NCBI GenBank assembly: GCA_003712055.1
Contig: RHLJ01000001.1
Location: 62,001-126,000, forward strand
Source: Balneola sp.
GTDB taxonomy: Bacteria; Bacteroidota; Rhodothermia; Balneolales; Balneolaceae
Reading direction: 5' to 3'
DNA: 64,000 nt
In this document: positions 1 to 40,854 of the stretch, piece by piece
Position numbering within the stretch: the first letter of the stretch is position 1
How the letters are laid out: every line of letters starts with the position of its first letter
Position numbers and translations under genes: made by a program
Notes under the pieces: generated by a model
What the model was told of the DNA's origin: nothing
Seen by the model: only the letters and a program-made list of their open reading frames with translations
Database searches by the model: none

Positions 1-3000
1 CAAGGTGGGCATGTAGAATATTTTAAATATATGATTGAGCTTCTTGAAGAGCATGGAGCGGGTCATATTAAAGTATTTGGAGGCGGTGGTGGTGTAATTG
101 TACAGGATGAGATAGATGATCTCCATGCATCCGGTGTAACCCGAATTTTTTCTGTTGAAGATGGTAGTAATATGGGGCTCCAGGGTATGATTAACTTCAT
201 GCTTAGAGAATGTGATTTTGCCCCTGTTACTATAGGTGATTTTGATGCTCATAAAATAAAAGAGAAAGATTCGATCACCCTTGCTAAAGCTATTTCAGCA
301 TTAGAGAACGGAAATGAAGAGCTCATCTCTTATGATCCTGGTAGCTATCTGATGAGTAATGGGAAGCGATTAGATGTTCACTCTGATCGAAATATTCCTC
401 TACTAGGAATAACCGGGACAGGAGGTGCTGGTAAGAGCTCACTTACCGATGAGGTTGTTCGTCGCTTTTTGAATGAATTTACTGATCTGTCAATTGGGAT
501 TATCTCTGTTGACCCGTCCAGATTAAAAACGGGTGGTGCCTTATTGGGAGACCGGATACGAATGAACAGCATAGATACTCATAGAGTGTTTATGAGGAGT
601 CTGGCTACTCGCGCGTCAAACAGGTCTACCAGTGCGGCATTGCAAGCTGTGATTGAGTTATACAAAGCAGCTGGTTTCGATTTAATCATTGTAGAGACCA
701 GTGGAATTGGTCAAAGTGGTACAGAAATCGTTGATTTGACTGATATACCAATTTATGTAATGACCAGCGAGTATGGAGCGGCCACTCAGCTTGAAAAGAT
801 TAATATGCTTGACCTGGCTGATATTGTAGTGCTCAATAAGTTTGAGAAGAAAGGCTCACAAGACGCCCTTCGTGATGTAAGAAAACAAATGCAAAGGAAT
901 TCAGGGCAATGGCATACAAACCCGGAAGAAATGGCTGTGTTTCCTACCATTGCTGCACAATTCAATGATGAAGGGGTAAATCGCCTTTTTAAAGCGCTTG
1001 TCGATCGAATCAATGATAAGTATGGGGTAAACTGGGAAACCAGTATTTACACTGATTCTAAGCCTTCAGATGGAATTCAGTCTCAGGCAATCATCCCCGG
1101 AAAAAGAGTCCGGTATTTATCTGAAATTTCAGAAACGGTAAGGAACTACCACACATGGGCGAATCAACAAGTTGAAGTAGCAGCTAAATGGGAGCAGGTT
1201 AAAGGAACCATCGCTCAATTAAAAGAAGCGGGTTCAAAAGTAGATGCCCAACTATTGACTCCACTTAAGCAGCTTCAATCAAGGTGGGAAGATGAACTGG
1301 ACAGGGTGCCTAAAAATATTCTTGAAAACTGGGATAATCTGTCAGAAAAATATCAGCAGGAAAGTTTTGATATCCAGATTCGAGACAAGGTTATAAAGAA
1401 TAAGCTTTATCGAACGTCCTTAAGCGGACTTCAGATCCCAAGAGTAGCTCTTCCGAAGACAAAGCAGGCAGCTGATAGGCTTCATTTCGCCTTGAAAGAG
1501 AATTTACCTGGCTATTTTCCATATACGGCTGGAGTTTTCCCATTCAAAAGAGAAGGAGAGGATCCAACGAGGATGTTTGCAGGTGAAGGAACTCCTGAAC
1601 GTACTAATAAACGTTTTCACTTTGTTAGCGAAGGACTCCCTGCAGCACGATTATCTACGGCCTTCGATTCAGTCACTCTTTATGGTGAAGATCCGGGTTT
1701 CAGACCCGACATATATGGGAAGATTGGAAACTCAGGAGTAAGTATTTGTACGCTTGACGATATGAAAAAGCTGTACTCCGGCTTCGAGCTTACTAAACCA
1801 ACTACATCTGTATCAATGACCATAAACGGTCCCGCTCCAATGATTTTGGCCATGTTTATGAATACAGCCATTGACCAGGAAATAGAGCGTTATTTAAAAT
1901 CAGAAGGGAAGTGGGAAGAAGCACAGGAAAAGATAAAAGCACATTTCGAGAAAATTGGAGTGCCTGTTCCCGTTTATACAAATGAAATTCCAAAAGGGAA
2001 TAATGAGTTTGGGCTTGGTCTGCTTGGAATTACCGGAGATAAACTTGTAGAGCCTGATGTATATAAGCGCATAAAAGCTGAAGCGCTTAGTGTAGTTAGA
2101 GGAACAGTACAAGCAGATATTCTTAAAGAAGATCAGGCTCAAAATACCTGTATTTTCTCAACCGAGTTTGCACTTAAGATGATGGGTGATATCCAGGAGT
2201 ATTTCACACAGCATAAAGTTAGGAATTACTACTCGGTATCTATTTCGGGATATCATATCGCTGAAGCCGGAGCTAACCCTGTTACACAAGCAGCATTCAC
2301 ACTGGCGAATGGTTTTACCTATGTAGAATATTATCTGGCACGAGGGTTAAATATTGATGATTTCGCACACAATCTATCGTTCTTTTTCAGTAATGGCTTA
2401 GATCCTGAATATTCTGTGATCGGAAGGGTAGCACGTCGTATATGGGCGGTTTCTATGAAGAATAAATATGCTGCTAACGATCGTTCACAAAAGCTTAAAT
2501 ATCATATCCAAACAAGTGGTAGATCATTGCATGCCCAGGAGATTCAGTTCAATGATATCCGAACCACATTACAAGCATTATTAGCAATATATGATAATTG
2601 TAACTCATTGCATACCAATGCTTATGACGAAGCAATTACTACTCCAACTGAGGAATCAGTTAGAAGAGCACTTGCTATCCAAATGATTATCAACAAGGAA
2701 CTTGGTACCGCTAAAAATGAAAACATAAATCAGGGTTCATTTTTTATAGAAGAGCTAACGGATTTAGTAGAAGAAGCTATACTCGCTGAATTTGACAGAA
2801 TCACAGATCGGGGTGGAGTTCTTGGTGCAATGGAAAGCATGTACCAGCGAGGAAAAATTCAGGACGAAAGCCTTTACTATGAGAGTAAAAAGCATAGCGG
2901 AGAACTTCCGATAATCGGGGTTAATACCTTCTTTGGAAAAGGAAGTGAAGAAGAAAATAAACCAGTAGAACTTATCAGATCTACCGAAGAGGAAAAGAAA

Positions 3001-8638: not shown

Positions 8639-9730
8639 TTGCCCAAAAAACCTGTTGTCTTAACCCTTGATGCCGGAGGTACTAATTTTGTTTTCTCCGC
8701 TGTAAAAAATGGGGTTTCATATGGTAAAAGCTTTTCATACCCAGCTAAGACTAATGAGCTGGAATCCTGTATCCAACTGATTATAGATGGGTTTGAAAAA
8801 CTTGCATCTACTCTAGATGAAAAACCGGATGCTATTAGTTTTGCTTTTCCCGGTCCTGCAGATTATGAACAGGGAATAATAGGTGACTTGCCAAATTTAC
8901 CAGCTTTTAAGGGGGGAACTCCATTAGCCTCTATGATAGAGGAAAGATTAGGAATACCTGTATTTATCAATAACGACGGGAACCTGTTCACTCTTGGAGA
9001 AAGCAAGTCTGGTTTTTTGCCATATTTAAATCAGCAGCTGAATGAGGCCGGGAGTTCCAGACGATTTAATAACCTCATAGGAATAACTTTGGGTACTGGT
9101 TTTGGAGTAGGGGTTTCTATAAATGGTCAGCTAGTTATTGGTGATAACAGCGTAGCTGCCGAAGGATGGTTGTTAAGGAATAAACATTATAACTATTCAA
9201 ATGTTGAGGATACACTTAGTATCCGTTCAATTAAGCGAATCTATGCTGAGCAAATTTCAATGGATCCTGCAAAAGCTCCGGAACCACATGAAATATTCGA
9301 AGTTGCCATCGGGCAGCGAGATGGTATTCGTGAAGCAGCTATAGAAACCTTCCTTAGATATGGAGAAGTCCTAGGTGATGCGATTGCTCATCTTATCACA
9401 ATTGTAGATGGAGTAGTTGTAATTGGAGGTGGAGTAAGTGGAGCATACCCGATTTTCTCTCGTTCTATGTTGGATGAGCTAAATGGAAGTTTTACAGCAC
9501 TAAATGGAAAGAGATTTCCAAGGCTTATTCAGGAGGTTTATGATTTTGAAAATGAGTTCAAAAGAAGAAGCTTTTTAAACCTGAAAGGGCAAACTATTTC
9601 TATTCCAGGTTCAGAAACACCAATTACCTATTATGAGACTAAAAGTACGGTAGTAGGCCTATCAAAGCTGGGAACCAGTAAAGCTATTTCACTGGGAGCT
9701 TATCACTTCGCGGTAGAAAAACTGGGCTAG
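8639..9730 (+). CDS. ROK-family sugar kinase
   Basis: Predicted ATP-dependent hexose kinase of the ROK group. The phosphate-binding loop is near the N-terminus (LTLDAGGTNF), the catalytic Asp lies in FINNDGN, and the adenosine-side glycine motif reads GITLGTGFGVG with VVIGGGVSGAY later. The zinc-binding CxCGxxGCxE segment of classical ROK kinases is absent: the corresponding stretch reads EGWLLRNKHYNYSN. Start is TTG at 8639 (no in-frame ATG nearby fits the N-terminal motif). Its TAG overlaps the stop of the convergent sugar transporter by 4 bp. Substrate (glucose, N-acetylmannosamine or other) cannot be fixed from sequence. Confidence 0.85.
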   Translation: MPKKPVVLTLDAGGTNFVFSAVKNGVSYGKSFSYPAKTNELESCIQLIIDGFEKLASTLDEKPDAISFAFPGPADYEQGIIGDLPNLPAFKGGTPLASMIEERLGIPVFINNDGNLFTLGESKSGFLPYLNQQLNEAGSSRRFNNLIGITLGTGFGVGVSINGQLVIGDNSVAAEGWLLRNKHYNYSNVEDTLSIRSIKRIYAEQISMDPAKAPEPHEIFEVAIGQRDGIREAAIETFLRYGEVLGDAIAHLITIVDGVVVIGGGVSGAYPIFSRSMLDELNGSFTALNGKRFPRLIQEVYDFENEFKRRSFLNLKGQTISIPGSETPITYYETKSTVVGLSKLGTSKAISLGAYHFAVEKLG

Positions 9731-11058
9731 TCAACTACTTTAACTTCAGATCCTTTAGCTCCATACCATAGGATGTATACGTAACAGAATGCCAAAAACA
9801 ACAGTGCATTTTGTAAACCAAATGAATCTGCCAGGCTACCATAAAGAGGAGGAATAAATGCTCCACCTACAATTGCGGTACAAAGAATACCAGATCCCTG
9901 TGCGGTATGCTCCTTTAAATCTTTAATTGATAAAGTAAAAATAGTGGGGAACATGATTGAGTTGAATAACCCAATACATAAAATGCTCCACATAGCTATA
10001 TAACCACCGGAAAGCATGCTAACAATTAAAAGGGTAATATTTACTCCTCCATATACAGCAAGAAGACGCCCCGGAGCAATTTTTTGTAGGAGTGCAGATC
10101 CAACAAATCTTCCAATCATAGCACCTCCCCAATAAAAGAATACAAACGTACCTGCCATTTGAGCTGGGTTCATAGAAGTAATATCAACGCTGGAAAAACT
10201 TAGCGTAGCGAGTATGTTAGCTACCCCACTCATAAATGAACTTTCGGATACAAGTGTAGCAATGTCCAGATTTAAGAAATAATTGACCAGGTAGCTTCCA
10301 ATAGCAACTTCGGCACCCACATACACAAAAATTCCGATAGCCCCGAAAGTAAGGTGTCGATTTTTTAAAGCTGATTTATAACTACCGTGATGATGTTCAT
10401 CACCTTCAAGGATACGTGGTAGTTTAAAAGCTGAAAATGCAAGAGCGAGTCCAATTAAGACAAAGGCGAGAATGACAAATGGTCCCTGAACAGCGGATGC
10501 TTCAGAAGCGTAATAGGAGAGCTTTTCAGCTTCACCAAGTGCGTCAATTTCTGATGAACTCAATACCGAATTACTCAGAATGAATGCGGCACTTACTAAA
10601 GGAGCAATTGTTGTTCCTAAGGAGTTAAAAGCCTGGGCTAGGTTTAGCCTACTTGAAGCTGTTTCCTGAGGACCTAATGCAGCAACGTATGGATTTGCTG
10701 CTACCTGAAGAATGGTGATACCTCCAGCCAATACAAACATTGCCAGCAGAAAAATTGCAAACATTCTAAACTCTGCAGCTGGGTAGAAGAGTAAACATGC
10801 TACACCCATTGTAATCAATCCCACTATTGCTCCTTTTTTGTAACCGATTTTTGATATAAGTTGGCCTCCGGGTATTGAAAAGACAGCATAGGCCGTGAAG
10901 AAGGCAAACTGAACAACACCACTTTGAAAGTAGGTTAGCTCAAATACATCTCTTAGTCTTGGAACAAGTGCATCAACCAAAACAGTAATGAAGCCCCACA
11001 TAAAAAAGAGGGAGGTAATTACAATGAAAGGTACCAGGTATTGATTTTTCTGAGTCAT
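9727..11058 (-). CDS. GluP/FucP-type MFS sugar:H+ symporter
   Basis: Twelve-helix inner-membrane transporter of the fucose/glucose-galactose branch of the major facilitator superfamily, 443 aa. Typical features are FFMWGFITVLVDALVPRL in helix 1, the loop SKIGYKKGA, ILQVAANPYVAALGP in helix 4, ASSRLNLAQAFNSLGT, and FVFFYWGGAMIGRFVGS in the second half. A larger cytoplasmic loop near the middle holds the His-rich EGDEHHHGSYK. It most likely imports a monosaccharide for the convergent ROK kinase. The stop codon overlaps that of the kinase in the palindrome CTAG. Start ATG at 11058. Confidence 0.9.
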   Translation of the reverse strand: MTQKNQYLVPFIVITSLFFMWGFITVLVDALVPRLRDVFELTYFQSGVVQFAFFTAYAVFSIPGGQLISKIGYKKGAIVGLITMGVACLLFYPAAEFRMFAIFLLAMFVLAGGITILQVAANPYVAALGPQETASSRLNLAQAFNSLGTTIAPLVSAAFILSNSVLSSSEIDALGEAEKLSYYASEASAVQGPFVILAFVLIGLALAFSAFKLPRILEGDEHHHGSYKSALKNRHLTFGAIGIFVYVGAEVAIGSYLVNYFLNLDIATLVSESSFMSGVANILATLSFSSVDITSMNPAQMAGTFVFFYWGGAMIGRFVGSALLQKIAPGRLLAVYGGVNITLLIVSMLSGGYIAMWSILCIGLFNSIMFPTIFTLSIKDLKEHTAQGSGILCTAIVGGAFIPPLYGSLADSFGLQNALLFLAFCYVYILWYGAKGSEVKVVD

Positions 11059-11099
11059 GTTTTTTTGGTTAGGCGCTACTGATCAATGTGAATGTATAC

Positions 11100-11131
11100 A
11101 AAAAAGGCTCCCTAAAGGAGCCTTGAATTTT
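11100..11131 (-). terminator. Rho-independent terminator, bidirectional in form
   Basis: AAGGCTCC (11104-11111) and GGAGCCTT (11117-11124) form an 8-bp stem with loop CTAAA. On the minus strand, a run of T follows the stem, directly after the TPR-protein gene that ends at 11133. An A/T-rich flank on the other side would also let it act on the plus strand. Confidence 0.85.
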
Positions 11132-11132
11132 T

Positions 11133-11819
11133 TTAGCTGGTAGCTGCTATCCGACCTTGGAGATTTTGTGAACTTGTAAGTTCAGCACTAGTGGGATACT
11201 CTGAAATAATTCGATCGGTGAGTTCTTGAGCCCTTTCTAAATCACCAGCTTCAAAATAAGCTTCAGCAGCCTGATACAGATTGTATGGAGTGGTATTATC
11301 ATTAATATCCCAGTTCGCAGCTTTAACAAAAGTCTCAGCAGCAAGCTCCGAATTACCATTCACGAGTAATAGCTTCGCATTAAAAGAAATTGCTCCTACG
11401 CCAAGTATTCCCTTAGGAGCATCATAGCTAGAAAGATGGTCAAGTGCGTCTTCAACGTTTCCTAATTTAAAACTAGAAACCGCTGCGTAATACGTAGCCA
11501 GGTTTCCCGCTTCTGTTCCTGAAAACTCGTTAGCTATTGCAAGGAAGCCATAGGTAAGCTCAAAACTGTCGCCATTAATAGCTCTGTCAAAGTCGCCCTG
11601 AGTGTAATATCCTTCAGCTATAGCTAAAAGTTGTTGTGCTTGTTCTTCCTGATTTTGAGAATAGAAGTTGTAACCAATTAGTGAACCAACAACAACTATG
11701 ATACTAATTACAATGGCCAGAATTGTAATTCTATTTTCAGTAAAAAATGATGCCGCCTTATTATAGCTTTCGATTAGCGGATCAGATTCAAGTTGTTCTT
11801 TAGAAAGGTGTTTAGCCAT
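11133..11819 (-). CDS. YfgM-like membrane-anchored TPR protein
   Basis: A 228-residue single-pass inner-membrane protein. A cytoplasmic N-terminus (residues 1-30) is followed by one helix (ITILAIVISIIVVVGSLIGY, about 31-50), then a periplasmic region with TPR-like pairs: AEGYYTQGDFDRAI, YYAAVSSFKLGNVEDAL, AAEAYFEAGDLERAQEL. This layout matches YfgM/Ancillary SecYEG partners, which help export and folding; the assignment to that role is by architecture only. It is the last gene of the minus-strand run from pheS and ends at a strong terminator. Start ATG at 11819. Confidence 0.75.
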   Translation of the reverse strand: MAKHLSKEQLESDPLIESYNKAASFFTENRITILAIVISIIVVVGSLIGYNFYSQNQEEQAQQLLAIAEGYYTQGDFDRAINGDSFELTYGFLAIANEFSGTEAGNLATYYAAVSSFKLGNVEDALDHLSSYDAPKGILGVGAISFNAKLLLVNGNSELAAETFVKAANWDINDNTTPYNLYQAAEAYFEAGDLERAQELTDRIISEYPTSAELTSSQNLQGRIAATS

Positions 11820-26124: not shown

Positions 26125-27324
26125 TTAAAAAGCAGCAGTTACGTAGGCTTTAAAAGAATAGAAATCACCGTTAAAATTATCCTGCTCGGCAAAAGCTACT
26201 TTTAGAAGTACATTTCTATCAAGCTTATATCCAACCAAGGCAGTGAACCTGGTCACATCGTAATCCCACATAAAATCTCCTCCTTGTGTTGGAGAGTTTG
26301 CAGTAGGATAATAAAGTTGATCGGCTCTTAGGGCGAAATAACCTCCTGTAAAGAAGGGGGGCTCATATCGAATATCAATGTTTGCAGCTATGTTTGAGAG
26401 ATCAAATTCTTCTAATCCGCCACTAGTTTTTTCTATAAAGCCATCTTCATTCGTATATCCTGGTACTAACCATTTAGAATAGGTGACCTCAGAAACAATT
26501 TCGAAGTAGGTAAACCCAAGTTGAAAATCAAAGCCAAGGGCAGTTTGGGTAAATTTGCTGAAATCATGATCATAGCTTAGTGTGTCTGCCGAGGCTTGAT
26601 GCATAAAACTTCCATGAGATGCCGATAAGCCAAAAGTAAGATAGGCGTTCGGAGAATGAGTCCAGCGTAACATACCGGCTAGTGTGTTAATAGGAGAAGC
26701 ATCGTAGCCAGTTGGAGATTCATTGGTAAGGGCAAACTTGAAGGTACTTTTCTGATTTTCTACTCCATAAACAAGTCCGGTTGTGTACCCTCCGTAAAAG
26801 AGAGTATTAACCCCATAATCACGATCGCTGGTTGGGATATCGCTATCGTAATATTTGCCCCGAGTTCCTTTCCACCAACCTCTTTCCCTGGAAATGAAAA
26901 GGCTGTAAGAATAGGATAAGGGGTAATCGATGAATGTTCGATCTATTTGTAGTTGACGGCTAGGATAAAACCCAAATGGAAGGATGATCTTACCACCAGA
27001 GATAAAATAATTCTTATCAGTCGGACTATAGGTAACGTTAGCTAATTCCAGTTTAGGAACTCCTAATTTACCAGTAAGAAATGTGCTGATTTTAACCCGT
27101 GCTTCTGTATAGAAATTTTCAGAAAGAGGAGCGAAGAGTAGCAAATTAAATTCTTCTGCGGTGGCATGTAAGTGAGTAAATTCTTCAGGGATTCCATTCA
27201 CAAAAAAACCTGATTCATTTCCACCTGCTTTTATCGCAACGTCAACGCTTCCATTAATCTGCACTTGAGAAAATCCAAGTGTCGGAATGAGTGATATTAG
27301 TAATACAGAAAAAACTTTATTCAT
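26125..27324 (-). CDS. Porin-like outer-membrane beta-barrel protein
   Basis: Signal peptide MNKVFSVLLISLIPTLGFSQ followed by alternating aromatic and polar strands characteristic of an outer-membrane barrel, and a C-terminal Phe (AYVTAAF). The mature protein is about 380 residues, in the size range of 16-strand porins. Pieces such as GKIILPFGFYPSRQLQ and GYKLDRNVLLKVAFAEQDNF look like uncharacterised porins. I chose the ATG at 27324, which starts the signal peptide; a frame upstream reaches 27345 but lies within the cyclase gene. It overlaps the cyclase gene by 8 bp, implying translational coupling. No ligand can be named. Confidence 0.75.
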   Translation of the reverse strand: MNKVFSVLLISLIPTLGFSQVQINGSVDVAIKAGGNESGFFVNGIPEEFTHLHATAEEFNLLLFAPLSENFYTEARVKISTFLTGKLGVPKLELANVTYSPTDKNYFISGGKIILPFGFYPSRQLQIDRTFIDYPLSYSYSLFISRERGWWKGTRGKYYDSDIPTSDRDYGVNTLFYGGYTTGLVYGVENQKSTFKFALTNESPTGYDASPINTLAGMLRWTHSPNAYLTFGLSASHGSFMHQASADTLSYDHDFSKFTQTALGFDFQLGFTYFEIVSEVTYSKWLVPGYTNEDGFIEKTSGGLEEFDLSNIAANIDIRYEPPFFTGGYFALRADQLYYPTANSPTQGGDFMWDYDVTRFTALVGYKLDRNVLLKVAFAEQDNFNGDFYSFKAYVTAAF

Positions 27325-29014
27325 AAAGTACCTCAACGGTTTCAATCGGGTTGGTAAATCCTTTCAAAGATTTAGGCTCTACATCTTTGAAGTTAAATTC
27401 TCTTGTAAGTCCATGCTCTTCTATTTTCATCTTAGGTAACAGGATCTGTCCCGATTCTGCAGCGGAACAAAGGCGGGCACAAAGGTTAACTTCAGGGCCA
27501 ATTACGGTATAATCCATCCGTTCACTTGCTCCCATATTTCCAAGTACCATACTTCCAAAATTCACGCCAATACCCAATCCCTTAAAGAAAGAGGAGAGTG
27601 TTTCATCTTTGTAGAAATCTTTCTGCATGGTCAGCGATGCTTTTATAGCACATTTAAGAGCGTCCTCTCCACTAAATAAAGCGATGATTGAGTCTCCAAC
27701 AAATTTATCAATAGATCCTCCGTAAGCTGTTACAGCATCGGCTTGAGAGGTAAGGGTTTTATTGAGGTTTTGAATGAAGTCTTCAGGATCCGTTTTTTCA
27801 ATTTTCGCTGTTGATCCACGAATATCTGTAAACAGAATTGCTAATTCTTGCCGGCTTCCTCCAAGTTCTAATCTCCCATCTGATGTTTTATTAATCATCT
27901 CGAGAGTGTGCGTGCCTACATAATTTTGTAATGCAAAACGTTCTTTAAGCCCAACCGTCATCTCATTGAAACGGTTTGCCATAAAGCCTATTTCATCTTT
28001 TGTTTTGGATTGCACGGTCACATCGAACTTTCCTTCTGAGACTTCTGCCATAGCCTCACTTAGATTTTTTATAGGAGATGTAAAGAGATTCCCCAAAAAG
28101 ATGGAGAGCAAGATGATTATAAGAAAAGCTACAAGAGCAATTATTAAAACGTTCTCTTGTAGAAGTTGGAGGGAAGAGAATTCCATTGCTACAGGAACAG
28201 TAGCGATGAAGAATGCATTTTCTCCGGTTCCAAGAGGTGAAACGGCCAAAAGCATTTCTGTGTCATTAACATCCGTTTGTAGGGTAGAAGAAAGAACAAG
28301 ATTCGAAGTGACTGAATCTACCAGTTCAGGATAACTAAGAAGGAAAGGCCAGAAATGTTCACTCCGAAAACTACTATCAGAAGTAGCAATCAAATCTTGC
28401 TCAAGAAAAAGTGAGATATCTATTTCAGTATTTAATTTTAGTTCTTCCGCTTCGGTATCAGTGAATTTGGCCCCAAAAGTAAGGGTGCCAATTACTATAT
28501 CTTCAACATTAAGAATGGGGACTGAAACTACTTGGTATAGCTCGTTCTCAAATGCCCAGATTGAAGGCCATTCTGGGTTGTATTCTGGATAGTATCCTTC
28601 AAGGGCTTCAGAAACATATTCCAGGCTACTCAGGTTTGTACCATGCAAATCCTGTCTTCTAAACCAACCTAATGTATTTCCTATATCATCAGTAACAATG
28701 ATTAGATCTGTCTCAGCGAAATTGGAGAACTCTAGAACATTAAAATAAACATTGCTTTCATCCTTGAGTTCAACATTCGTTTTAAGTGAGGAATTTTCTG
28801 CTACTAAAATAGCTGATTCGATGAGGCGCTTATACTTGGAATCTTGCTGTATTTTAAAAACTTCCTGAAGATTACTGAAGTCAGATATTACCTCTTCACG
28901 AATGGTTTTAGAAGAGATCGTATTGATTGCAATTAAAACGGTAGCGAGTACAGCAATGGTAAGTAATGAGAGAAGGAGAAAGAGTTTGAGCCGGATTGGA
29001 AAACCTATTTTCAT
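27317..29014 (-). CDS. Membrane receptor-type class III adenylate cyclase
   Basis: Makes a cyclic nucleotide, most likely cAMP, in response to an extracytoplasmic signal. Helix 1 is at residues 12-30, a periplasmic sensor domain spans about 31-287, helix 2 is at 288-306, HAMP at 307-360, and the cyclase domain at 385-555. All key residues are visible: metal Asp397 (FTDIRGST) and Asp441 (KFVGDS), adenine-selecting Lys437 and Asp501 (DYTVIGPEVN), and transition-state Asn510 and Arg514 (NLCARL). The sensor resembles double-Cache-type domains by size and strand pattern, not by a firm motif. It lies 8 bp after the cupredoxin-like gene and overlaps the porin gene. Start ATG at 29014. Confidence 0.9.
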   Translation of the reverse strand: MKIGFPIRLKLFLLLSLLTIAVLATVLIAINTISSKTIREEVISDFSNLQEVFKIQQDSKYKRLIESAILVAENSSLKTNVELKDESNVYFNVLEFSNFAETDLIIVTDDIGNTLGWFRRQDLHGTNLSSLEYVSEALEGYYPEYNPEWPSIWAFENELYQVVSVPILNVEDIVIGTLTFGAKFTDTEAEELKLNTEIDISLFLEQDLIATSDSSFRSEHFWPFLLSYPELVDSVTSNLVLSSTLQTDVNDTEMLLAVSPLGTGENAFFIATVPVAMEFSSLQLLQENVLIIALVAFLIIILLSIFLGNLFTSPIKNLSEAMAEVSEGKFDVTVQSKTKDEIGFMANRFNEMTVGLKERFALQNYVGTHTLEMINKTSDGRLELGGSRQELAILFTDIRGSTAKIEKTDPEDFIQNLNKTLTSQADAVTAYGGSIDKFVGDSIIALFSGEDALKCAIKASLTMQKDFYKDETLSSFFKGLGIGVNFGSMVLGNMGASERMDYTVIGPEVNLCARLCSAAESGQILLPKMKIEEHGLTREFNFKDVEPKSLKGFTNPIETVEVLYE

Positions 29015-29022
29015 AAGAGTGA

Positions 29023-29763
29023 TTATGAAAATTCCAGAACTATACTTTTAGATTCACTAACAGATACTGTTATTTCCTGTATCAACAGGCTAAACCTGGG
29101 ATGATATGCTCTTATTTCATACTCACCCGGAGGAAGGTTATCCAGTTGAAATGTACCATCATCGTTAGCCCTGGTGAAATAGGGTGTATCCAGACTCAGA
29201 ACAATCGCATTCATTTGTGAATGAATATCACAATAGATACTTATAGGACCAATACCTTCTACTCTCCAATTGAGTTCTGGGACAACTTTACTGTATACAT
29301 CTCCTTTAGGACGACGACCAATGTTGAATCTTGCACCGGGAGTAAGGCTAAAGACATTATGAAAAAAAGGATCATCATTGACAAACTGAACAGTAGATCC
29401 AACGGTAACTGCTGTAACTCTGGGAATAAATACTGCATCTTTCTGGATAACTTGAGCAGGTTCTTCAAGTGGAGTTGTTTCTACTGTAAATGATATCGGA
29501 TGTGCACTAATAATTACATCGCTGAAGTTACTTGAGCTATTTGAGGATTCATCAGTTGAGGAGTCACCAGAGGTTCTGTTTCTGTAGGTTCGTCCTCTAA
29601 ACCTGTTATTAGAAGCTTTTTGGATAGCAGGCAACACAATAGTACCTGAGACGGTAGCATCATTTTGATCTATTTGCTCAACAGGAGCTAATCTGCTATC
29701 AGTGTCAATGTCAGAAGTGGGAGACAAAACCATCAGCCCTAATAGAAAAACAAGTGTCCTCAT
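29023..29763 (-). CDS. Exported cupredoxin-like protein with carboxypeptidase-regulatory-like end
   Basis: A 246-residue exported protein. A hydrophobic start (MRTLVFLLGLMVLSPTS) is followed by a low-complexity Arg/Ser/Asn stretch (residues 48-80), a cupredoxin-like fold (about 85-190) and a CarboxypepD_reg-like beta sandwich (DGTFQLDNLPPGEYEIRAYHP, about 195-246). A full set of type 1 copper ligands is in plausible places: His135 (FFHNVFS), Cys178 and His181 (YCDIHSQ), Met184. It resembles proteins annotated as methylamine-utilisation/plastocyanin-like, but no amine dehydrogenase is nearby. It heads the cupredoxin-cyclase-porin unit. Start ATG at 29763. Confidence 0.78.
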   Translation of the reverse strand: MRTLVFLLGLMVLSPTSDIDTDSRLAPVEQIDQNDATVSGTIVLPAIQKASNNRFRGRTYRNRTSGDSSTDESSNSSSNFSDVIISAHPISFTVETTPLEEPAQVIQKDAVFIPRVTAVTVGSTVQFVNDDPFFHNVFSLTPGARFNIGRRPKGDVYSKVVPELNWRVEGIGPISIYCDIHSQMNAIVLSLDTPYFTRANDDGTFQLDNLPPGEYEIRAYHPRFSLLIQEITVSVSESKSIVLEFS

Positions 29764-29827: not shown

Positions 29828-30391
29828 CTATTTCGCATAAATCATTGTTGTATCAGAAGGAACATTCCAGGGGTCAACACGATCATATACTACCCATGCT
29901 TCTCGAAAGCGTCTCTTGAGGAGGTTTGAATAGTAAATAGCTCGGTCTCGGTCATGAAAATTGCCGACGTGAACTTTATAGTAAGGGGTCTTGAAAAAAG
30001 TATAGGTTTCAGCCTGGTAGCCTACAATAGTAGTATCCGACCATGCTCGAAAAATGGAAGCTATTGTATCAGCCATGGCTACATTTCTCCCAGAATAAAG
30101 CTGAACCCGGTATCCTTCAAATAGATTTTTCTGGTCTTTATTCTCTTCTTCTACTTTGATGCGGGCATATTCATCAGGGATTGGGTTACTCTTGTTCTGA
30201 TAAGTATCAGAAAGAGTACTTCTGTAGCTATCAAGATAGGAGCCAGTAGATGGGTTAGTAACCGGAGGTTCTATCGGATTGGTTGTATTAACTGTTCCAG
30301 AATCAGCGGTTTCATTAGTTTCAATTACAGGCTGAGTTCCTGAACATGCATAAATAAGAAAAATTGAAACTGCTAAGAGAACTCGAGACAT
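29828..30391 (-). CDS. SPOR-domain lipoprotein
   Basis: Lipobox FLIYACSG puts the acylated Cys at residue 16 from the ATG at 30391 (the frame itself extends to 30403). A Thr/Asn/Pro-rich linker follows, then a SPOR domain at the C-terminus (EGYRVQLYSGRNVAMAD, PYYKVHVGNFHDRDRAIYY). SPOR domains bind denuded septal peptidoglycan, so a role at the division site is likely. The ATG is 1 nt after the stop of the truncated ALDH gene, so it may be co-translated; functional linkage to that operon is not evident. Confidence 0.85.
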   Translation of the reverse strand: MSRVLLAVSIFLIYACSGTQPVIETNETADSGTVNTTNPIEPPVTNPSTGSYLDSYRSTLSDTYQNKSNPIPDEYARIKVEEENKDQKNLFEGYRVQLYSGRNVAMADTIASIFRAWSDTTIVGYQAETYTFFKTPYYKVHVGNFHDRDRAIYYSNLLKRRFREAWVVYDRVDPWNVPSDTTMIYAK

Positions 30392-30392
30392 A

Positions 30393-31259
30393 TTAAAACC
30401 CAATAGGGTGCCAGGTTGTTTTCGTTTCCTGAAAATCGGTGATAAAATATGGGCTCTGAGCTTCGCTTGAATACCAGTCAGAAGTTATCTTTTTGACAAC
30501 TCTTTTCAGATTTTCGGTAGACTGCTCATCAATCATTTTAATCATTTCAGGGGTTAGTGTATCTGTATAAATGATAGCATTTACATCCATATGACCACTG
30601 AAATGTTCCGCAAGTTCTTCTTTTTTTCCTGTCAGGATATTTACAACCCCACCTGGAACATCCGATGCATTTAACACTTCTGCAAAAAGAATGGAAGTAG
30701 TTGGGTAAGGTTCAGATGCAAGTGCTACACACGTGTTACCACCCGCTATAGCAGGAGCAATTAATGAGACTAATCCTAGAAGGGGAGATTGATCCGGAGC
30801 TAATATTGCAACCACTCCAGTAGGATCTAGCAAACTAAAGTTGAAATGAGCACTTGCAACCGGATTTACAGAGCCAAATACCTGCTGATATTTATCCGTC
30901 CATCCCGCATAATATATGAGTCGGTCGATAGATGCATTAACATCTGCTTCCGCTTCAGCGGCAGAAAAACCAATGGTAGAAAGTTGCTTCTCAAATTCAG
31001 CTCTCCTGCTTTCGAGCATTTCAGCAATTCTGTAGAGGATTTGCCCGCGATTGTATGCATTTCTTGATTTCCATCCCGAAAAAGCTCCCCGGGCACTTTT
31101 AACAGCATCCCTAACATCCTTTCGGCTGCAAAGGCATGCATTAGCCAGTAATTCTTTTTCGCTATCAAAAACCTTGTAATACCTTCCAGATTCAGTTCTT
31201 GGGAAGTTCCCGTTTACATAGATTTTGTAAGTTTTTAATACTTCTAAATGTTCACTCAT
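30393..31259 (-). CDS. Truncated, catalytically dead ALDH-like protein
   Basis: Related to the N-terminal NAD-binding part of aldehyde dehydrogenases (YKIYVNGNFPRTES, ARGAFSGWKSRNAYNRGQIL, APAIAGGNTCVALAS, VPGGVVNILTG) but it stops at 288 residues, before the catalytic-Cys domain. Signature residues are also lost: the PWNFP site reads APDQSP, the cofactor Lys reads ALASEP, and ELGGK and the Cys loop are absent. The end reads cleanly to a stop, without signs of a frameshift in its middle. It follows the intact ALDH by 9 bp from the ATG at 31259. Together the pair resembles a split ALDH16, in which a second, inactive domain supports the first (inference). Confidence 0.85.
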   Translation of the reverse strand: MSEHLEVLKTYKIYVNGNFPRTESGRYYKVFDSEKELLANACLCSRKDVRDAVKSARGAFSGWKSRNAYNRGQILYRIAEMLESRRAEFEKQLSTIGFSAAEAEADVNASIDRLIYYAGWTDKYQQVFGSVNPVASAHFNFSLLDPTGVVAILAPDQSPLLGLVSLIAPAIAGGNTCVALASEPYPTTSILFAEVLNASDVPGGVVNILTGKKEELAEHFSGHMDVNAIIYTDTLTPEMIKMIDEQSTENLKRVVKKITSDWYSSEAQSPYFITDFQETKTTWHPIGF

Positions 31260-31268
31260 GGCCAATTA

Positions 31269-32777
31269 TCATTTTAGAGTTAAATAAGCGGATAATCCAT
31301 GCAAACCGCCTTCTCTTCCAATTCCACTTTCTTTATATCCACCAAAGGGTGAGGTTGGATCAAATTTGTTGTATGTATTTGCCCAAACAACACCAGAACG
31401 TAGCCCTGAGCCAACCTTAAATACTTTTGATCCTTTATCAGTCCAGACCCCGCCAGCCAGTCCATAAGGAGTGTTATTGGCTTTCTGTATAGCTTCGTCA
31501 GCAGTTCTAAACGTTTGAACGGTAAGAACAGGGCCAAAAATTTCTTCCTGAACCACCCGTTTACTTTGTGATACATTAGTAAGGAGGGTAGGGCGAATGA
31601 AAAAACCGGTGTCCGGGATGGAGCATTTGCTTTGATATACATCAGCTCCCTCATCTAAACCAATCTCTAAGAATGAGTTAATAGTGTCATATTGTTGACC
31701 GGAATTGATGGCTCCAATATCAGTATTCTTATCAAGTGGGTCGCCAACGATGAGTGTTTCCATCCGGTCTTTTAGCTTTCCAATTAGCTCATTAGCTACT
31801 CCTTCCTGAACAAGAAGCCGTGACCCTGCGCAGCATACATGTCCCTGATTAAAGAAGATGGCATTGATAATACCTTCTACCGCCTGATCTATGGCGGCAT
31901 CTTCGAAAATGATTAGAGCACCTTTTCCACCTAATTCAAGGGTGAATTTCTTGTCTGTTCCTGCAATAGATCTTTGTATCAGTTTTCCAACAGCAGTAGA
32001 GCCGGTAAAAGCAATCTTGTCAATATCCTCATGATTCACCATTTCAGCGCCTGTTTGGCCTGCTCCTGTAATAATATTTACTACTCCATCAGGTAAACCG
32101 GAATCCTTAATTAATTCTGCAAATTTTAATGCAGTTAAAGAGGTAGTCTCAGCTGGTTTGAGAACGACGGTGTTTCCACATGCCAACGCTGGAGCAATTT
32201 TCCAGGCCAGCATAAGTAAAGGAAAGTTCCATGGTATGATTTGTCCACATACGCCAATAGGTTCAGGGGTTTTGCCTGGAAATGCATACTCAAGTTTATC
32301 AGCCCATCCTGCGTAATAAAAGAAGTGAGCAGCAGCAAGAGGAACATCTACATCTCTGGACTCTCGAATAGGCTTACCTCCGTCCATACTTTCTAATACT
32401 GCAAATTCCCGTGCTCTCTCTTGGAGCATCCGGGCGATACGATATAGATATTTCCCCCTGGTTTTCGGTGCCAGTGAGCTCCATTCACCTTTAAATGCTT
32501 TCCGAGCTGCTTTTACTGCACTATTTACATCACTTTGGGTAGCTTCTGCAAACTCAGTGATGACTTCTTTATTTGCAGGATTAATCGTCGGGAAATATCT
32601 GTCTTTGGATGGTTTAACAAATTTACCACCAATAAATAGTTCATAGCGATCTTTAATCTCAACATGGCTGGTACTCTCAGGAGCAGGAGCATATTCCCAA
32701 ACTGAGGCGAAATCGAGTTTCGAGTTTGGAGAAGTGGGTTTGAAAGGGGTTTCTTTAGTCTCTGTTGTTTGTGACAT
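31269..32777 (-). CDS. NAD(P)-dependent aldehyde dehydrogenase
   Basis: Intact ALDH, 502 aa. It has the substrate/cofactor loop IIPWNFPLLML, Lys207 in VVLKPAE, FTGSTAVG, general base Glu281 in ELGGKG, and catalytic Cys315 in NQGHVCCAGSR, with EEIFGPVL and SPFGGYKESGIGRE at the end. It lies 11 bp downstream of deoC, so the most likely substrate is acetaldehyde released by the aldolase (context inference). An N-terminal extension of about 40 residues precedes the domain. Start ATG at 32777. Confidence 0.93.
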   Translation of the reverse strand: MSQTTETKETPFKPTSPNSKLDFASVWEYAPAPESTSHVEIKDRYELFIGGKFVKPSKDRYFPTINPANKEVITEFAEATQSDVNSAVKAARKAFKGEWSSLAPKTRGKYLYRIARMLQERAREFAVLESMDGGKPIRESRDVDVPLAAAHFFYYAGWADKLEYAFPGKTPEPIGVCGQIIPWNFPLLMLAWKIAPALACGNTVVLKPAETTSLTALKFAELIKDSGLPDGVVNIITGAGQTGAEMVNHEDIDKIAFTGSTAVGKLIQRSIAGTDKKFTLELGGKGALIIFEDAAIDQAVEGIINAIFFNQGHVCCAGSRLLVQEGVANELIGKLKDRMETLIVGDPLDKNTDIGAINSGQQYDTINSFLEIGLDEGADVYQSKCSIPDTGFFIRPTLLTNVSQSKRVVQEEIFGPVLTVQTFRTADEAIQKANNTPYGLAGGVWTDKGSKVFKVGSGLRSGVVWANTYNKFDPTSPFGGYKESGIGREGGLHGLSAYLTLK

Positions 32778-32788
32778 ATCGGTCAGTT

Positions 32789-33688
32789 TTAATCCACTGA
32801 AAAATAGTCCGGACTTTGATATCGTCCGGTTTCCTGTTTTACGATTTGCATAAGCACATCGTTGGCAAGTGAGCTGGCTCCAAATCGGAAGTATTCATTA
32901 TTTAACCAGGCTGCTCCAAGTGTTTCTTTTACAAGTACAAGGTATTGTAATGCTTGTTTTGCAGTTCTAATTCCTCCTGCAGGCTTCATTCCAATCATTT
33001 TTCCTGTTCGATTGTAAAAATCACGGATCGCTTCCAGCATTACTAACGTAACGGGTTGTGTAGCTGCGGGGCTTATTTTACCAGTAGATGTTTTAATAAA
33101 ATCAGCACCAGCATCCATTGAGATATCGCTCGCCTTTCTCACATTTTCATAGGTATGAAGTTCTCCGGTTTCCAGAATCACCTTTAAATGGGCTTCTCCA
33201 CAAGCTTCTTTCACAGCAGCAACTTCATCAAATACCTTGTTGTACTCACCTGATAAAAAAGCTCCACGGCTTATTACCATATCAACCTCATCTGCACCTT
33301 CGTCTACTGCAAATTTAGTATCATCAATTCTTACCGAGAGAGGGGCCATCCCACTTGGAAAAGCAGTAGCAACACTAGCTACATTAATTCCTGTACCTTT
33401 CACTTGTTCTTTTGCAATTCGAACCATTGTAGGATAAACACAAACTGCAGCTACTTTTGGGAGATCCGGAAGCGGGGCGTACGGTAGTTTAGCTTTTTGA
33501 CATAATTGGATGACTTTTCCTTCGGAATCTTTTCCCTCCAGTGTAGTCAAATCCATCATGCTAAGCGCCATTTTTAATCCACTTAACTTAGCATCTTTTT
33601 TGATACTCCTTTTATTAAGCCTGGAAACACGTTCTTCGATACCAACGTGATCTATGGGTTTTGTGATAGTATAGTCTGATCTGTTCAT
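32789..33688 (-). CDS. deoC: Deoxyribose-phosphate aldolase
   Basis: Class I aldolase splitting 2-deoxyribose 5-phosphate into glyceraldehyde 3-phosphate and acetaldehyde. The TIM-barrel motifs are present: VDEGADEVDMVISRGAF, KVILETGEL, the Schiff-base Lys in GADFIKTSTGK, and GMKPAGGIRTAKQAL. About 299 aa, longer than the E. coli enzyme by an N-terminal extension of about 45 residues, as is common in Gram-negative relatives. A TAnnTTTG box lies 45 bp upstream. First gene of deoC-ALDH-ALDH-like. Confidence 0.95.
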   Translation of the reverse strand: MNRSDYTITKPIDHVGIEERVSRLNKRSIKKDAKLSGLKMALSMMDLTTLEGKDSEGKVIQLCQKAKLPYAPLPDLPKVAAVCVYPTMVRIAKEQVKGTGINVASVATAFPSGMAPLSVRIDDTKFAVDEGADEVDMVISRGAFLSGEYNKVFDEVAAVKEACGEAHLKVILETGELHTYENVRKASDISMDAGADFIKTSTGKISPAATQPVTLVMLEAIRDFYNRTGKMIGMKPAGGIRTAKQALQYLVLVKETLGAAWLNNEYFRFGASSLANDVLMQIVKQETGRYQSPDYFSVD

Positions 33689-40317: not shown

Positions 40318-40854
40318 TTATTCGTTAGGATCTTTCTGCTCGTAATAGGCTTCGAATTCAATTTTTACTGCTGTATGTGCGTCTGATAGTTCTTCAATTT
40401 TATTAGTAGCACGTTCCAGTTGCCTTAAAGCAATATTTGAGAGGGTTTGTAAGAACTTAACCGCTATTTGAGGATGGCGCTCCATTAATAGTTCGAAATC
40501 CGGTTTAAAAAATCCAAGAAGAGTACAATCAGTAATACATCTTGCGGAAGATTTTCTTCTCAAATTATATCCTATAGAAAGTGCTCCAAAACTATCAGAG
40601 GTTTCTAGCAAGAATCCTTCTTTAGACTCTTCGTTATCATCTAAATTAAAAGTAAGCTCTACCTGCCCATCTTCTATGAAATACATTCCTGTACCCGGAT
40701 CATTTCGATAGAAGACGTATTCACCCTCCTTATAACTTCTTCTGTGGCATAATTGCAAAAATTCAAAACGTTCAGCAGCAGAAAGATTTTTTATAAACTT
40801 TGAGTTGAATACTATTTTTGCCTGATTTGTTAAGCGCTTTAATTTTTGTTTCAT
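40318..40854 (-). CDS. Cyclic-nucleotide-binding-fold protein without DNA-binding domain
   Basis: 178-residue CNMP-domain protein; residues about 20-140 form the CRP-type beta roll (RSYKEGEYVFYRNDPGTGM, FIEDGQVELTF), followed by a C-terminal helix and no HTH. The phosphate-binding cassette departs from consensus: FGE is FGALSIGYN, with Arg/Lys in RRKSSARC. Loss of the cassette Glu suggests that it binds a different ligand or none. Located between the BamA-like gene and rlmD, same strand, with gaps of 14 and 3 bp. Confidence 0.82.
   Translation of the reverse strand: MKQKLKRLTNQAKIVFNSKFIKNLSAAERFEFLQLCHRRSYKEGEYVFYRNDPGTGMYFIEDGQVELTFNLDDNEESKEGFLLETSDSFGALSIGYNLRRKSSARCITDCTLLGFFKPDFELLMERHPQIAVKFLQTLSNIALRQLERATNKIEELSDAHTAVKIEFEAYYEQKDPNE

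Follow-up and report, generated by a model that had tools for sequence, protein, structure and literature searches.

Soluble periplasmic proteins are known to inform membrane receptors, as in the TorT-TorS and LuxP-LuxQ pairs, and in Pseudomonas putida the CinA/CinRS locus encodes a plastocyanin/azurin-like copper protein beside a membrane sensor. Comparable arrangements include GltB-GtrS, a pair of a periplasmic protein and a sensor kinase (PMC7927077), and the YfiBNR system of Pseudomonas aeruginosa, which combines an outer-membrane member, a soluble periplasmic regulator and an inner-membrane nucleotide cyclase receptor (PMC4887326, PMC3375315). Here we describe a three-gene cassette from a 64,000-nucleotide stretch of a Balneola sp. 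genome (contig RHLJ01000001.1, positions 62,001 to 126,000; hereafter the window), encoding a secreted cupredoxin, an inner-membrane receptor adenylate cyclase and an outer-membrane barrel. The three genes are tightly linked across several phyla, and the cassette points to an undescribed, modular form of sensing, directed at a cue outside the cell that is related to copper or redox.

All three genes lie on the minus strand, in the order cupredoxin, receptor cyclase, barrel, with the following features (lengths in amino acids, aa):

29023-29763, minus strand: secreted two-domain cupredoxin, 246 aa, with a signal peptide, a low-complexity linker, a type 1 copper domain and a C-terminal domain
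Cupredoxin residues about 100-191, minus strand: type 1 copper domain
29212-29361, minus strand: type 1 copper ligands His135 (29359-29361), Cys178 (29230-29232), His181 (29221-29223) and Met184 (29212-29214)
Cupredoxin residues 192-241, minus strand: C-terminal transthyretin/carboxypeptidase-regulatory-like domain (Pfam)
27317-29014, minus strand: inner-membrane receptor adenylate cyclase, 565 aa, ATG start, with a transmembrane segment, a periplasmic ectodomain, a second transmembrane segment (TM2), a HAMP domain and a class III cyclase domain
28160-28918, minus strand: periplasmic ectodomain, about residues 33-285, dCache_3-like
27947-28099, minus strand: HAMP domain, residues 306-356 (Pfam)
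27350-27850, minus strand: class III cyclase catalytic domain, residues 389-555 (Pfam PF00211, above cut-off)
26125-27324, minus strand: 16-stranded outer-membrane barrel of general-porin type, 399 aa, with a signal peptide and an ATG start at 27324 (AlphaFold2 (AF2) model and Foldseek)

A gap of 8 bp (29015-29022) separates the cupredoxin and cyclase genes. The open reading frame (ORF) of the barrel can be read from a TTG (26125-27345) or from an ATG (26125-27324), and the ATG gives an exact 8-bp overlap with the end of the cyclase gene (27317-27324). These coordinates agree with the layout of three genes, gap and overlap in the original prediction, which had been made from the sequence of the window alone. 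A scan for promoters and terminators gave no signal exceeding that of shuffled sequences.

Linkage was assessed in a sample of 244 genomes of the same class using separate profile searches for the porin and for the receptor ectodomain, the latter profile being built without the HAMP or catalytic domain. The porin profile gave 34 hits in 28 of the 244 genomes, and the ectodomain profile gave 33 hits in the same 28. All hits of both profiles fall in 33 loci, each beside a cupredoxin, and none lies elsewhere in these genomes. Across 249 Gemmatimonadota genomes, every porin hit (10 of 10) has a cupredoxin hit no farther than about 3.5 kb away. Adjacency in other genomes, on which the original prediction had staked its link between the three genes, is thus not rare; adjacency of the trio is far above chance.

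Further cassettes are present in Gemmatimonadota, in Acidobacteriota and in genomes of Ignavibacteria/Kapabacteria/Chlorobi type, the Chlorobi/Kapabacteria label of L159-L170 being deduced from the phylum sampled and from L011 and L017. We mapped 140 cupredoxin loci from the class and other phyla (L numbers), picked by cupredoxin score, so that fractions among them are not population estimates: 69 hold full trios and 21 more hold the receptor. Among these 21, L106 matches in the HAMP region only, and several end at a contig edge or hold a different barrel-like gene. Gene order varies, with cupredoxin-receptor-porin, porin-cupredoxin-receptor and cupredoxin-porin-receptor all observed, and in Acidobacteriota a receptor followed by a barrel-like gene of another family and a cupredoxin. 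That the set is kept while its order is permuted across phyla points to selection acting on the set. Two diverged cassettes are present in five genomes; identity between the copies is only 23-31% for every one of the three genes, yet each cassette clade holds together across genomes for cupredoxin, receptor and porin alike. In 67 trios the pairwise distances of these genes are correlated (rho 0.53-0.81 versus permutation maxima of 0.08-0.19), with a contribution from shared ancestry. We regard it as very likely that the three genes form one functional unit.

Judged by its modelled fold and its ligand set, the first gene product is a type 1 (blue) cupredoxin, predicted to bind copper. The ligand loop, C-x2-H-x2-M, has amicyanin spacing, and together with the upstream His it aligns with the type 1 sites of copper nitrite reductases (NirK), amicyanin and plastocyanin in hidden Markov model (HMM) matches and alignment. 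The AF2 model of the protein has a predicted local distance difference test score (pLDDT) of 77.6, mostly about 90 in the folded part and lower in the ligand loops, and Foldseek matches it to amicyanin (template modelling score by target about 0.71), pseudoazurin and plastocyanin. His135, Cys178, His181 and Met184, the four ligands originally proposed at these positions, are all kept in 90 of 90 receptor-linked cupredoxins, and both the ligand assignment and the proposed cupredoxin fold hold. Receptor-linked members also share Phe138 and Ser139 (89 of 90 for each), a signature mostly lost among relatives that lack a receptor.

Such relatives occupy other contexts: those of Rhodothermales lie beside cytochrome c oxidase genes, and short proteobacterial ones beside MauG-like genes. 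Both groups were considered as cassettes and rejected as relatives in other contexts. In families of Rhodothermia, a cupredoxin-plus-transthyretin-like protein of the same family is encoded immediately upstream of cytochrome c oxidase subunit genes (L079, L100, L074 and similar loci) and may be an electron donor.

The second gene encodes a receptor cyclase in which all six class III catalytic residues are present (D397, K437, D441, D501, N510 and R514), and Pfam assigns its HAMP and Guanylate_cyc domains; the sequence therefore supports the catalytically intact enzyme proposed earlier. The metal aspartates are intact in 48 of 48 sequences, and the Lys437/Asp501 pair of the window cyclase indicates adenine as the probable base. 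The ectodomain is matched by the dCache_3 profile in 15 of 31 aligned homologues (in L143 at 5.6e-12), the window protein itself giving no match at E 0.1. Its alignment contains no conserved His, Cys or Met column (maximum 24%), and direct metal sensing by the receptor was rejected on this ground. The copper chemistry would accordingly sit in the cupredoxin, most simply read by protein contact.

The third gene product has no Pfam domain match. Its AF2 model, built from seven sequences, shows 16 strands at moderate confidence (pLDDT 65.4, loops poor), and Foldseek returns OmpT as the best match (E 1.9e-11), together with chitoporin, OmpM1, DcaP and OmpC/F types. The C-terminal residue is Phe, an aromatic as in general porins. 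By modelled strand number, signal peptide and terminal aromatic residue the barrel is a general porin, in keeping with the porin-like barrel first suggested, and an open pore or trimer is predicted at most. In the porin slot of Acidobacteriota loci L018 (4223-5803), L019 (4181-5767) and L020 (4034-5638), we observed proteins of 510-540 aa with an N-terminal coiled coil, a barrel-like C-terminus and a final Phe; homology of these proteins to the porin family of the window was not detectable.

The output side of the receptor is exchangeable, and cyclic AMP (cAMP) is only one of several outputs of this cassette type. A cyclase is present in 31 of the 33 loci of the class, while the other two (L121, L124) have a HisKA_2 histidine kinase behind that ectodomain. 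Elsewhere this ectodomain is joined to HisKA kinases, some near NtrC-type regulators (L014, L017, L180, L153), to hybrid kinases with a receiver (L142, L146, L156, L190) and, with no adjacent porin, to a Ser/Thr protein kinase domain (L151, 7607-9607; L154, 4817-6877). The receptor tree needs at least three exchanges between cyclase and kinase. Because output domains vary behind one ectodomain, the conserved part of the system is its input, comprising cupredoxin, ectodomain and porin. The cAMP reading originally put forward may hold for the cyclase type of the window but not as the essence of the cassette, since the ectodomain drives histidine, hybrid and Ser/Thr kinases in other loci. The Balneola genome itself holds nine Guanylate_cyc genes and six genes for cyclic nucleotide (cNMP)-binding proteins, five of them over the cut-off, and the latter make cAMP signaling plausible. 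Its best cNMP-binding match, a 178-aa protein consisting of this domain alone (40318-40854), is encoded about 11 kb from the trio.

In Gemmatimonadota, receptor, cyclase and porin domains occur in one continuous ORF of 986-1364 aa, located as follows:

L012, 6414-9410: fused ORF
L013, 6457-9435: fused ORF
L139, 5126-8788: fused ORF
L140, 7600-10560: fused ORF
L141, 3662-7756: fused ORF
L021, 3609-5425 (cut): cyclase, signal-like segment and barrel N-terminus, then the contig end

A single-genome assembly error was rejected as the source of the fusion, which is present in six Gemmatimonadota assemblies. At the junction lies a hydrophobic stretch containing small residues (e.g. VSGVASLFLAGLAAPADAQ in L013), which resembles an internal signal peptide; internal GTG codons are present in the fused ORFs, few with a Shine-Dalgarno-like motif. 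The ORF could possibly encode a polyprotein cut by signal peptidase, for which the bacterial cytochrome b/c1 precursor FbcH, cleaved by this enzyme, provides a precedent, or give two products from internal starts. In L013 a gene for a protein with cNMP-binding and methyltransferase domains (9461-10921) begins 25 bp after the fused ORF, which fits a cAMP output.

A ferritin-like lipoprotein is a recurrent fourth partner in two distant lineages. The protein (PF13668), with a Tat-like lipoprotein-type signal, is encoded after the porin in Balneolaceae (L009, L115-L117), where the order in L009 is porin-ferritin-porin, and also in Ignavibacteria/Kapabacteria-type loci (L159, L161, L166-L168, L170). 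Genes located directly after the porin are:

L009, 9677-10249: ferritin-like (PF13668) gene
L115, 10659-11273: ferritin-like (PF13668) gene
L159, 3360-3968: ferritin-like (PF13668) gene
L161, 10833-11390: ferritin-like (PF13668) gene
L166, 3575-4144: ferritin-like (PF13668) gene

This partner was not found in the genome of the window, in a search that had no positive control. Where present, it adds to the metal/redox theme of the input.

The best reading of these data, to which we give an even chance, is that the dCache receptor, by touching the cupredoxin, senses whether that protein has changed its copper or redox state. The cupredoxin would serve as a soluble periplasmic co-receptor, whose loaded or empty, or reduced or oxidized, state would alter its engagement with the dCache_3-like ectodomain. 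TM2 and a rearrangement of HAMP would relay this change to the class III adenylate cyclase, acting as a dimer, and so alter cAMP, which would then act via CRP-like effectors. A metal complex or a small compound with redox activity would be the stimulus, admitted to the periplasm by the porin, which might also or instead anchor the cupredoxin at the outer membrane, where the stimulus could act on it. The computations show the composition of the cassette, its folds and intact sites, the co-occurrence and co-localization of its genes, the exchange of outputs and the cyclase-porin fusion in relatives; we infer the cupredoxin-receptor contact, the copper or redox nature of the stimulus, the role of the porin and the sign of the response. 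The location of cupredoxin relatives near cytochrome c oxidase and di-haem peroxidase genes favors redox state over copper level, without proving it.

Several points weigh against a cupredoxin co-receptor. Electron transfer is the known role of cupredoxins, and relatives of the present protein lie in cytochrome c oxidase and MauG-like peroxidase neighborhoods, so it could be an electron donor instead. Receptor-cupredoxin pairs of the Ser/Thr-kinase type occur without an adjacent porin. Finally, a small ligand might be bound directly by the dCache fold itself.

An alternative that we consider unlikely makes the porin a channel for a substrate to which the ectodomain binds directly after import; the cupredoxin would only modify or oxidize that molecule or protect the receptor. 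In its favor, small ligands are what dCache domains usually bind, the model of the barrel is of the substrate type of porin (OmpT, chitoporin, DcaP), and in Acidobacteriota another barrel-like family seems to occupy the porin slot, which would be expected were channel function important. However, the ectodomain lacks any conserved pocket motif, in contrast to the invariant copper site, and the cupredoxin is kept at the Ser/Thr kinase loci even without an adjacent porin.

The amicyanin-type site, the occurrence of proteins of this family in cox and di-haem peroxidase operons and the ferritin-like partner could also be accommodated if the cupredoxin, by shuttling electrons, connected a partner in the periplasm or outer membrane, lodged in or beneath the porin, to a second carrier, with the receptor monitoring the reduced fraction as a gauge of respiration or extracellular electrons. 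We think this improbable, since the cassette has no conserved cytochrome or oxidoreductase and the barrel resembles a general porin rather than a known conduit. Equally small is the probability that we assign to a narrow periplasmic copper-homeostasis sensor, in which the apo or holo cupredoxin would report the copper level and cAMP would control copper uptake and detoxification. Invariant copper ligands, porins as metal entry routes and a ferritin-like metal-binding partner are consistent with such a sensor, but genes for a copper exporter, CopZ or a multicopper oxidase do not recur beside receptor-linked loci, and type 1 sites usually bind copper too tightly for level sensing. Passive inheritance of an operon without joint function, suggested by the aldehyde dehydrogenases, SPOR and DedA genes also often kept beside one Balneolaceae clade, is barely credible given the permuted order, the fusion, the perfect co-occurrence, the presence of two diverged paralogous cassettes within some genomes and the lack, among the 244 genomes, of any independent loss of one member with the other two kept.

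Read more widely, with a likelihood that we place somewhat short of even, the co-receptor arrangement may represent an undescribed class of envelope signaling: a type 1 copper protein would be the co-receptor of a dCache receptor, a porin would be a regular part of the sensor, a single-polyprotein form (cyclase, internal signal peptide, barrel) would exist in Gemmatimonadota, and cAMP, two-component and Ser/Thr kinase outputs would be interchangeable. Most bacterial receptors have no known input, and the tight tie between copper protein, porin and ectodomain makes the input of dozens of cyclases and kinases testable. If the cupredoxin is indeed a co-receptor, electron-transfer proteins gain a signaling role, and the cyclase-porin ORF would, unusually, be a single gene that spans both envelope membranes.

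The operon of the window and its near flanks contain genes for DedA, the porin, the cyclase, a SPOR protein and two aldehyde-dehydrogenase-like ORFs. Upstream of the trio (29828-33688) lie the SPOR gene, the two aldehyde-dehydrogenase-like ORFs and a deoxyribose-phosphate-aldolase-like ORF, and in many Balneolaceae from the same clade the cassette likewise has SPOR, aldehyde-dehydrogenase-like and aldolase-like neighbors. In L113, a 401-aa protein, DUF3095-like by eye, is encoded between the porin and DedA genes (10584-11789). Methylamine utilization was rejected: the operon and near flanks hold no methylamine dehydrogenase (MADH) subunits, the rest of the genome not having been searched, which upholds for this region the absence of an amine dehydrogenase reported at the outset.

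The first reading of the locus had named no matching system, and we likewise found no published description of the gene set in the open-licence literature searched, which is weak evidence of absence. Known class III CHASE/Cache-HAMP receptor cyclases share with the window receptor a membrane receptor plan, HAMP and an intact class III domain, whereas their fusion or coupling to a porin and a cupredoxin has not been reported, as far as literature searches show. Amicyanin and the type 1 domain of nitrite reductase resemble the cassette cupredoxin in fold, ligand set and C-x2-H-x2-M loop; the cassette protein differs in its additional C-terminal transthyretin-like domain and in belonging to a receptor operon instead of accompanying methylamine dehydrogenase or a reductase. 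The cupredoxin of CinA/CinRS is encoded by a target gene of its copper sensor, and that locus has neither porin nor cyclase. YfiBNR comes close in its tripartite plan of outer-membrane, periplasmic and inner-membrane cyclase parts, but YfiB is a Pal-like lipoprotein instead of a porin, YfiR does not belong to the cupredoxins, and the output of the GGDEF protein YfiN is cyclic di-GMP; none of the YfiBNR families is found in the trio, to which Pfam and NCBIfam assign other domains. GltB-GtrS, TorT-TorS and LuxP-LuxQ share with the cassette a soluble periplasmic protein that informs a membrane receptor, or would do so here; their partners are solute-binding proteins, whereas the cassette joins a type 1 copper protein and a porin to several classes of output.

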